A DNA stretch of 64,000 nt from Inmirania thermothiophila (lineage in GTDB: Bacteria; Pseudomonadota; Gammaproteobacteria; DSM-100275). This document shows, piece after piece, positions 21,498-64,000 of this stretch. Made by a program: the position numbers and the translations under genes. The stretch is from assembly GCF_003751635.1 (NCBI RefSeq), contig NZ_RJVI01000002.1, forward strand, positions 979,986 to 1,043,985. The letters are read 5' to 3'. The notes under the pieces were generated by a model, which did not search any database, was not told where the DNA came from, and saw nothing but the letters and a program-made list of their open reading frames with translations. Every line of letters starts with the position of its first letter. The stretch's first letter is position 1.

Positions 21498-22256
21498 ATG
21501 GACATCCTCACCGCACGGACCCTCGAGACGCTGCTCTATCCGCCCGCAGGGCCGCTGCTGCTGGCGCTCGCGGCGCTCGCCCTGCGCGGCCGCCTGCGCA
21601 GGCTCCTGGTGGGGCTTGCGCTGGCCGCGCTCTGGCTCGGCGCCACGCCGTGGCTTGCGCGCCTCGTCACGGCGCCCCTGGAGCGCGATCCGGCCCTTGA
21701 TGCGGCCGCGGTGCGGGCGCGGGGGGCGCAGGCCATCGTCGTCCTCGCCTACACGCGCTATCCCGACGCCCCCGAGTACGGCGGCGACACCTCCGGGGCC
21801 GGGGAGCTCGTGCGCCTCCGCTGGGCGGCGAGGCTGCAGCGGGAGACGGGCCTGCCGCTGGCGGTGATCGGCGGCGATCCCCTCGGCACGGGCACCGCCG
21901 AGGCGGAGATCATGACCCGGGTGCTCGCGCGCGACTTCGGTGTCGCCGTGCGCTGGGCCGACGGGCGCAGCCGCCACACCTTCGACAACGCCCGCTACGC
22001 CGCCGCCCTGCTCCTGCCCGAGGGGGTGCGCCGCATCGCCCTCGTCACCCACGCCTGGCACATGCCACGGGCCGTGCAGGCCTTCCGCGCGGCGGGCTTC
22101 GAGGTGATCCCCTCACCCACGGGCTTCACCACCGCCGACCCCACCACCCGCGGCTGGCGCGCCCTGCTTCCGAACGCGGACGCCCTCGTGCAGACCCGAC
22201 GCGCCCTGCACGAGTGGATCGGGCGCGCGGTCTACGCCCTCGGCCTGCGCCCCTGA
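21498..22256 (+). CDS. YdcF/ElyC-like DUF218 envelope protein
   Basis: A 252-residue protein with two N-terminal membrane helices (about residues 16-30 and 36-52) and a DUF218 domain: AIVVLAYTRYPDAPEYGG, the basic pocket LPLAVIGGDPLGTGTAEAE, SRHTFDNARYAA and VTHAWHMPRAVQAFRAAG. E. coli ElyC and SanA of this family affect lipid-carrier use and envelope integrity. In place of the common VVLGGG the first strand reads VVLAYT. Its 3' end is overlapped on the other strand by the tail of the fibro-slime gene. Confidence 0.83.
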   Translation: MDILTARTLETLLYPPAGPLLLALAALALRGRLRRLLVGLALAALWLGATPWLARLVTAPLERDPALDAAAVRARGAQAIVVLAYTRYPDAPEYGGDTSGAGELVRLRWAARLQRETGLPLAVIGGDPLGTGTAEAEIMTRVLARDFGVAVRWADGRSRHTFDNARYAAALLLPEGVRRIALVTHAWHMPRAVQAFRAAGFEVIPSPTGFTTADPTTRGWRALLPNADALVQTRRALHEWIGRAVYALGLRP

Positions 22257-22997
22257 GCGCGGCGCGCGGCCCACAGGCTCCGGCACGCTCGACGGGGGGG
22301 CGATGCGGAAGCTGGTGGTGATGTTGAAGTTGGAGGCCACCGTGTGCCGTTCGGCGAAGAAGACGTCGAGGTCGTACAGGGTGTCCTCCTCGAGCCCCAA
22401 CGCCAGCAGGTCCGCTCCCGTGATGGTCTTCGACGCGGCGCCGTGCACCCCGCCGAGGTCGATGGCGAGCCGCCCCCCGACGTAGATCCAGAGGTCGTCG
22501 TCGCCGGTGAAGGTGAAACTGTCCGCGGCCCGGAAGCTCGTCTGCCCCTCCAGGTGCAGGGTGAAGTGGTAGTTGTGCGACCGGCCCTGATTGCCGAACC
22601 CCATGCCGTCGACGGGGAAGAAGGCGCTGCTGGCGAAGCTGAAGACCCCGCTCCCGGGCGCCGTCTCGGTCAGCGTCAGCGCATAGGGGATGGGCGTGTT
22701 GAAGCCCGGCGCGTCCGTGTACCACCGGGCGAAGTTGGCGGCGTTGGTGGCGCCCGCGCCGCCGCCCACGTAGTCGGGAAGTCCCGCGGCGTTGAGGGTC
22801 GGGCTCACCATGCCCGTGACCACGCCGGTGATGGCACCCTCGAAGTCGGCAAGGCGCGTGCACGTGCCCGGGATGTCGGGGGCGCAGAAGTCCCGGATGG
22901 TCCCCGTCAGCGTCACCGCCCCCGCCGCGCCCGAGCCGAGCATCAGCACGGCAAGGCCGAGCGCGCGGCCCGTGCGTCCGTCTGCCAGCAATCTCAT
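22113..22997 (-). CDS. Fibro-slime-domain exported protein with a lost PEP-CTERM tail
   Basis: A 294-residue secreted protein: signal peptide (GRALGLAVLMLGSGAAGAVT), then a fibro-slime domain marked by TLTGTIRDF, DFEGAITGVVTGM, FTFTGDDDLWIYVGGRLAID and LGGVHG. Near residue 238 it reads SSVPEP, the start of a PEP-CTERM sorting signal, but no hydrophobic helix or Arg-rich end follows. The frame instead runs antisense into the YdcF-like gene for 144 nt. The ATG at 22997 has GGAGG 8 nt upstream. A sigma-54-type promoter lies at 23036-23049. Fibro-slime domains occur in surface and matrix proteins; function here is inferred. Confidence 0.78.
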   Translation of the reverse strand: MRLLADGRTGRALGLAVLMLGSGAAGAVTLTGTIRDFCAPDIPGTCTRLADFEGAITGVVTGMVSPTLNAAGLPDYVGGGAGATNAANFARWYTDAPGFNTPIPYALTLTETAPGSGVFSFASSAFFPVDGMGFGNQGRSHNYHFTLHLEGQTSFRAADSFTFTGDDDLWIYVGGRLAIDLGGVHGAASKTITGADLLALGLEEDTLYDLDVFFAERHTVASNFNITTSFRIAPPSSVPEPVGRAPRSGAQAEGVDRAPDPLVQGASGLHEGVRVRKQGAPAAGGGVGGGEARG

Positions 22998-23035
22998 TCT
23001 GCACACCTCCAGGGAAGACCTCGATCCCTCCCCAT

Positions 23036-23049
23036 GCAACCATCGTGCC
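23036..23049 (-). promoter_or_regulatory. Sigma-54-type -24/-12 promoter
   Basis: On the minus strand CGGCACGATGGTTGCATG (23050-23033) fits the RpoN consensus yTGGCACG-N4-TTGCw, with exactly ten bases between GG (23049-23048) and GC (23037-23036). The predicted start is about 12 nt further on, near 23024, leaving room for the GGAGG and the ATG at 22997. No competing sigma-70 promoter was seen. Confidence 0.75.
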
Positions 23050-23111
23050 GCATGATGCACCCTGTTGATTGCTCGGCTTCCTTCCCGGTTCGGGCGGGGG
23101 ATCGGGCGGCC

Positions 23112-23134
23112 GGGTGTAAAGAAAACCGACACCC
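23112..23134. promoter_or_regulatory. Dyad, candidate activator site upstream of the sigma-54 promoter
   Basis: GGGTGT (23112-23117) and ACACCC (23129-23134) form an interrupted dyad around an A-rich centre, in the longer string TGTAAAGAAAACCGACA. It lies 65-85 bp upstream of the -24 element, the usual distance for an enhancer-binding protein site. Binding by any protein is untested. Confidence 0.5.
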
Positions 23135-63429: not shown

Positions 63430-64000
63430 TCAGGACGCATACCCGGCGCGCTCGTATTCCTCGAGCTTGCGGTAGAGCGTGGAGAGGCCGATGCCGAGCC
63501 GCCGCGCGGCCTCCCTGCGGTCCCCCCCCGCCTCCTCGATCGCGCGTAGGATAACACCGGCCTCGAACTCCCGCACTTGCTCGCGCAAGGTCCTCGCGCC
63601 CTGGGCGCGCGGCGTGCTCGGCCGGGCGAACTGCGCCGGCAGGTCCGCCACCGTGATGACGCCGTCCTCGGCGAGGATGAGGGCACGCTGGATGACGTTC
63701 TCCAGCTCGCGCACGTTACCCGGCCAGTCGTGGGCCATGAGCATCGCCTCGGCCTCGGGATCCAGCCGCCAGGATTCGCCGTGGCCGTGCCTGCGCAGGA
63801 AGTGCTCCACCAGCCTAGGCACGTCCTCGCGGTGCTCGCGCAGCGGCGGCACCTGGATCTGGAAGACGTTGAGGCGGAAGTAGAGGTCCTCGCGGAAGGT
63901 CCCCTCGGCGACCATGGCCGCGAGATCGCGGTTGGTGGCGGCGATGATGCGCACGTCCACGGGCCGTGCCGTCTCGCTCCCCACGGGGCGGACCTTCTTC
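63430..64000 (-). CDS. Sigma-54-dependent transcriptional activator, C-terminal part (partial)
   Basis: The right window edge cuts this gene; about 190 C-terminal residues are visible. They contain the end of the AAA+ domain (VRIIAATNRDLAAMVAEG, FREDLYFRLNVFQIQVPPLR, DWPGNVRELENVIQRALIL) and a Fis-type helix-turn-helix (DRREAARRLGIGLSTLYRKLEEY). The GAFTGA loop and any receiver domain are outside. It begins the minus-strand run that contains the Sel1, cytochrome and propeller genes. It is a candidate activator for the sigma-54 promoter at 23036-23049, although that link is only inference. Confidence 0.9.
   Translation of the reverse strand, partial: KKVRPVGSETARPVDVRIIAATNRDLAAMVAEGTFREDLYFRLNVFQIQVPPLREHREDVPRLVEHFLRRHGHGESWRLDPEAEAMLMAHDWPGNVRELENVIQRALILAEDGVITVADLPAQFARPSTPRAQGARTLREQVREFEAGVILRAIEEAGGDRREAARRLGIGLSTLYRKLEEYERAGYAS

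Follow-up and report, generated by a model that had tools for sequence, protein, structure and literature searches.

The fibro-slime gene and its surroundings

The window analysed here, a stretch of 64,000 nucleotides from Inmirania thermothiophila, carries on its minus strand a gene for a small and probably exported protein which converges with an intact ydcF/elyC-like gene on the opposite strand (Table 1). An earlier note, made from the sequence alone, had placed the reading frame on the correct strand and at the correct coordinates and had assigned a fibro-slime domain to its product. Our profile search agrees with this assignment, with 92-95 bits to TIGR02148 against a cut-off of 45, and the related PA14 family (PF07691) is also reached with 25.4 bits against a cut-off of 24. 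No other fibro-slime domain is encoded in the genome. The body of the gene is intact and free of internal stops, and the DUF218 match of the convergent gene extends nearly to the C-terminus of its product.

Proteins with the TIGR02148 domain are known mainly from cellulose adhesion in Fibrobacter, and according to a 2018 paper no bacteria apart from Fibrobacter had been found to carry the domain (PMC6291624). In contrast to that statement, fibro-slime proteins are documented here as PEP-CTERM cargo in proteobacterial genomes. The window protein has the domain, above cut-off, in common with the Fibrobacter-type proteins but is unlike them in being small and single-domain, in its apparent PEP-CTERM origin and in its promoter, which is of the XrtA-regulon type.

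Table 1. Positions in the window of the fibro-slime gene, its control elements and the features at its 3' end.
Feature	Position	Strand	Basis
Motif 1, putative PrsR enhancer-binding site, TGTCGGTTTTCTTTACA	23115..23131	-	Genome-wide motif search; PEP-CTERM promoters; motif of Haft et al. 2006
Sigma-54 -24/-12 promoter, CGGCACGATGGTTGCA	23035..23050	-	GG-N10-GC spacing; 64 nt after motif 1
Fibro-slime gene, open reading frame of 294 aa	ATG 22997 to stop 22113	-	
Start codon and predicted signal peptide (MRLLADGRTGRALGLAVLMLGSGAAGA)	22917..22997	-	Direct reading by eye; alignment with homologue N-termini
Fibro-slime/PA14 domain (TIGR02148) with GDDDLWIYVGG loop	22305..22577	-	TIGR02148 match (G000:C2:1002290-1002562); PA14 score; PDB fold matches
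VPEP motif, remnant start of PEP-CTERM sorting signal	22275..22286	-	Aligned with the PEP of homologues
Probable in-frame read-through after VPEP, 53 aa and stop	22113..22274	-	Antisense to ydcF; lacks the codon signature of the gene
Frame +1 remnant SLWAARRAQGRRPRA and stop, similar to the last part of PEP-CTERM tails	22232..22279	-	Tail comparison
Convergent, intact ydcF/elyC-like gene (DUF218)	21498..22256	+	PF02698, 103.7 bits, residues 78-242 of 252

A promoter of the XrtA/PEP-CTERM regulon

The earlier note had proposed a near-consensus RpoN promoter for this gene, with an upstream dyad at enhancer distance. The proposed promoter is well supported, as CGGCACGATGGTTGCA agrees with the consensus at 11 of 12 positions, is the best sigma-54-like site within the window and belongs to just seven sites in the 2.6 Mb of the genome that match YGGCACRNNNNTTGCW exactly, as against none for the reversed control. 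The dyad, TGTCGGTTTTCTTTACA, is likewise real and not a product of chance; what the sequence of the window alone could not reveal is that it represents a genome-wide regulon motif placed at the standard spacing. A search of the whole 2.6-Mb genome with TGTCRGNTTTYTTTACA, allowing up to two mismatches, returned 12 sites, and the same pattern reversed as a control returned none. The copy at the window gene agrees with the regulon consensus of the genome at 17 of 17 positions.

Comparison of upstream regions located the same 17-nt element in front of the PEP-CTERM genes of this genome. Three of the sites belong to two VWA PEP-CTERM genes (L001 and L006) and to the window gene, while further sites precede L002, L003, L004, L005 and L008, the last of which has two copies. 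One more stands in front of a PAP-CTERM gene (C1:637620; tail PAPLALLGAGLLALGAMARRRRG) and another in front of a gene without PEP-CTERM at C3:172643. The site at C1:774714 lies inside the Lnt gene with no sigma-54 site near it and was set aside as a coincidence. L007 is on the same strand as L008, downstream of it and without a motif 1 site of its own, and therefore probably shares the L008 promoter. The spacer between motif 1 and the sigma-54 site measures 62-65 nt in eight of the ten promoters, the window gene included, and 52 and 108 nt in the other two.

This arrangement corresponds to the one described by Haft et al. (2006), in which a 17-nt motif ending in TTTACA is followed, after a spacer of 62.8 +/- 10.6 nt, by a sigma-54 site, and in which the phylogenetic profile of the motif equals that of PrsK, PrsR and PrsT (PMC1569441). 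The XrtA/PEP-CTERM regulon of Proteobacteria is matched here in the motif, the spacer length, the sigma-54 site, the regulators and the exosortase. XrtA is the single exosortase of the genome (364.7 bits against a cut-off of 208); PrsR (724.7 bits), PrsK (744), PrsT (704) and EpsB_2 (536) are encoded in one cluster, and RpoN is encoded as well (479 bits). All three of the genes which the earlier note had singled out for a search, xrtA, prsK and prsR, are thus present. The machinery to switch on and to sort PEP-CTERM proteins is therefore available in this genome, and the membership in an RpoN/PEP-CTERM regulon that had been suggested for the window gene is supported by the presence of both motifs at the spacing seen in the other PEP-CTERM promoters. 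Judged by its sequence, this is a textbook promoter of the XrtA/PEP-CTERM regulon, in which protein sorting is linked to exopolysaccharide. The window protein is unlike the known cargo of this regulon (PMC1569441) in that its PEP-CTERM signal is without the transmembrane helix. Neither the regulon nor its motifs are new, both having been described in 2006, and the truncated allele adds a minor variant to them.

A comparable case is PepA of Aquincola tertiaricarbonis, a PEP-CTERM protein that depends on RpoN and takes part in floc formation (PMC9850573). Its gene has an enhancer-like site upstream of an RpoN promoter, and PepA is an exported protein of the matrix type, as the window protein appears to be, but its domain is other than fibro-slime.

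Probable loss of the PEP-CTERM helix

Six PEP-bearing homologues of the window protein (L037-L042), with identities of 44 to about 65% where measured, all end with a complete PEP-CTERM signal, in which the PEP motif is followed by a hydrophobic helix and then by an Arg-rich terminus. The PEP of these homologues stands at the same position as the VPEP of the window protein, and the alignment stops right after VPEP. A more distant fibro-slime protein from Myxococcales (L043) has no PEP at all. The comparison of C-termini, which had been recommended in the earlier note, indicates that the tail of the window protein was lost secondarily; the six complete tails rule out that the homologues, too, end after a non-conserved PEP. 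The orders of two of the homologue genomes added no new information.

Motif 1-like and sigma-54-like sites are also found at the homologues L039 and L040, with spacers of 54 and 63 nt, respectively. At L039, which comes from another gammaproteobacterial genome, motif 1 is kept at 16 of 17 positions, and the regulation appears to be conserved.

No hydrophobic 15-mer could be found after VPEP in any of the three frames, the best Kyte-Doolittle means being 0.25, -0.22 and -0.09, as compared to 1.3-2.4 in 15 reference tails. Consistent with this, the window gene is absent from the PF07589 (PEP-CTERM) matches of the genome. A single sequencing frameshift that would restore the tail is ruled out by the absence of a helix from all three frames. 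Neither of the two findings that the earlier note had named as refuting its view was thus obtained. The view that the transmembrane segment and the Arg tail are both gone holds for the helix but not entirely for the Arg-rich end, which is missing from the reading frame of the gene and is represented by SLWAARRAQGRRPRA and a stop in frame +1 after VPE.

GC content by codon position is 0.94/0.66/0.75 in the stretch downstream of VPEP as compared to 0.62/0.54/0.95 in the gene body. Since this stretch is antisense to ydcF and the codon signature of the body is missing from it, the extension is most likely a fortuitous read-through.

Origin of the truncated end

Taken as a whole, the data are probably best explained by a flocculin-like protein of the XrtA regulon from which a short deletion has removed the sorting helix, with the consequent loss of recognition by the exosortase. 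We infer that RpoN would activate the promoter jointly with PrsR, the latter bound at motif 1, and that Sec would export the protein. Some 38 nt would have been deleted between the codons for VPEP and those for the Arg-rich end, and this would have taken away the transmembrane helix and shifted the frame into the antisense of ydcF. XrtA would then no longer recognise or cleave the product, which would stay in the periplasm in soluble form or, given another secretion route, reach the outside of the cell.

The frame +1 remnant resembles the last part of the PEP-CTERM tails of this genome (for example GLGFARRRAA and stop) and has Arg-Arg at the expected place. The usual length of the helix points with moderate strength to a loss of about 38 nt, although the phase would be kept by 35 or 41 nt as well. 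By chance, 2.8% of Markov sequences contain a remnant of this kind, and so do 10 of the 249 GAGCC positions in the window (about 4%). This chance of about 3-4% comes from a post hoc test, designed after the sequence had been seen, and the support that it lends to a deletion is for that reason only moderate. Alternatively, the 3' end may have been replaced by a rearrangement next to ydcF, which would be another form of the same loss. The regulon gene at C3:172643 has no PEP-CTERM tail either, and therefore regulon membership does not require such a tail.

The truncated end is seen in one assembly only, and it could be supposed that a GC-rich stretch coding for the helix was lost in assembly or consensus calling from a living gene with a normal PEP-CTERM. 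Such an error would be in keeping with the tails of all the PEP-bearing homologues, with the intact remainder of the gene and with the GC-rich and repetitive character that the missing stretch would have. However, the other tails of this genome, eight of the PEP-CTERM and one of the PAP-CTERM type, were assembled intact, and the loss of tens of bases would be needed in place of the usual one-base error, as no single frameshift restores the helix; we therefore consider this explanation unlikely. That the tetrapeptide VPEP is coincidental and that the gene never had a PEP-CTERM would be conceivable from the existence of fibro-slime proteins without one, such as L043. This explanation is very improbable and can be dismissed, because all the homologues with an identity of about 62-65% have the PEP-CTERM at the same position and because the promoter is of the PEP-CTERM regulon type.

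Also unlikely, at slightly less than an assembly error though well above a coincidental VPEP, is a truncation that was selected. It would have turned a sorted surface lectin into a soluble, diffusible matrix protein with PrsR/RpoN control retained, and sorted as well as released matrix proteins would then come from a single regulon. The intact body without stops, the full conservation of the promoter and the enhancer site, and the tail-less regulon member at C3:172643 speak for such a re-targeting, as does the release of Myxococcus TraA to the medium via the T2SS when it is expressed without its MYXO-CTERM (PMC11980579). However, a new tail that is the antisense of ydcF and has no coding signature looks like an accident, and no second lineage shares the helix-less end. 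The short deletion remains the explanation that we prefer.

Fate and likely role of the protein

A signal peptide alone predicts a location in the periplasm, and crossing of the outer membrane needs another route. The PEP-CTERM helix is considered a transient tether which is recognised by the exosortase. The earlier expectation of a protein secreted without exosortase anchoring is thus right in the loss of the helix, goes beyond what the signal peptide predicts in the word secreted and is imprecise in the word anchoring. With the helix gone, the window protein would be periplasmic, or released if some other route exports it. The TraA case resembles it in that a C-terminal sorting tag is missing from an exported protein, but that truncation was engineered, belongs to another sortase family and leads to release via the T2SS (PMC11980579). 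If confirmed, this natural truncation of a protein that retains all the regulatory features of an exosortase substrate would offer a ready-made test of the function of the PEP-CTERM helix, with the intact versions of its relatives as controls.

A structure model of the protein was built from five sequences (pLDDT 72.5, pTM 0.74). Its top Foldseek matches in the PDB are the yeast flocculins Flo1 and Flo5, Epa1, and bacterial PA14 sugar-binding domains, among them the PA14 domain of the Marinomonas RTX adhesin, although the TM-scores are low (about 0.3). A PDB search with the protein sequence returned nothing useful. The Asp-rich GDDD loop is common to the window protein and the PA14-type lectins, and we take it to be of the type that binds calcium and sugar in this family. 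The fold matches suggest that the window protein is likely a carbohydrate-binding matrix or surface protein of a flocculin-like kind.

Other genes of the regulon

The PAP-CTERM gene (G000:C1:636541-637488; L028:1542-2489, minus strand) is preceded by motif 1 and a sigma-54 site and has PAP in place of PEP in its tail. It is absent from the PF07589 matches and has a weak similarity to PepA (NF033554, below cut-off). At G000:C3:172643-172659 (L056), a perfect motif 1 and a sigma-54 site stand before a gene with a GYWKNH segment and no PEP-CTERM, and a small PqqD-like ORF comes next after this gene. Motif 1 can thus flag former or atypical PEP-CTERM genes that are missed by the tail model, as for the window gene, the PAP-CTERM gene and the tail-less gene. 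Upstream of one PEP-CTERM gene, motif 1 occurs twice (G000:C3:178791-178966), the two copies being oppositely oriented; for some genomes, repetition of the motif was already noted by Haft et al. 2006 (PMC1569441).

Behind prsR lie two long TPR genes side by side (G000:C1:629492-635551). The first is PrsT, and the second, which has a similar start, may be a duplicate of it. Within the window itself, a gene on the minus strand that runs off the end (63451-64000) encodes an NtrC-type sigma-54 response regulator with 357.8 bits to TIGR02915, below the cut-off of that model.
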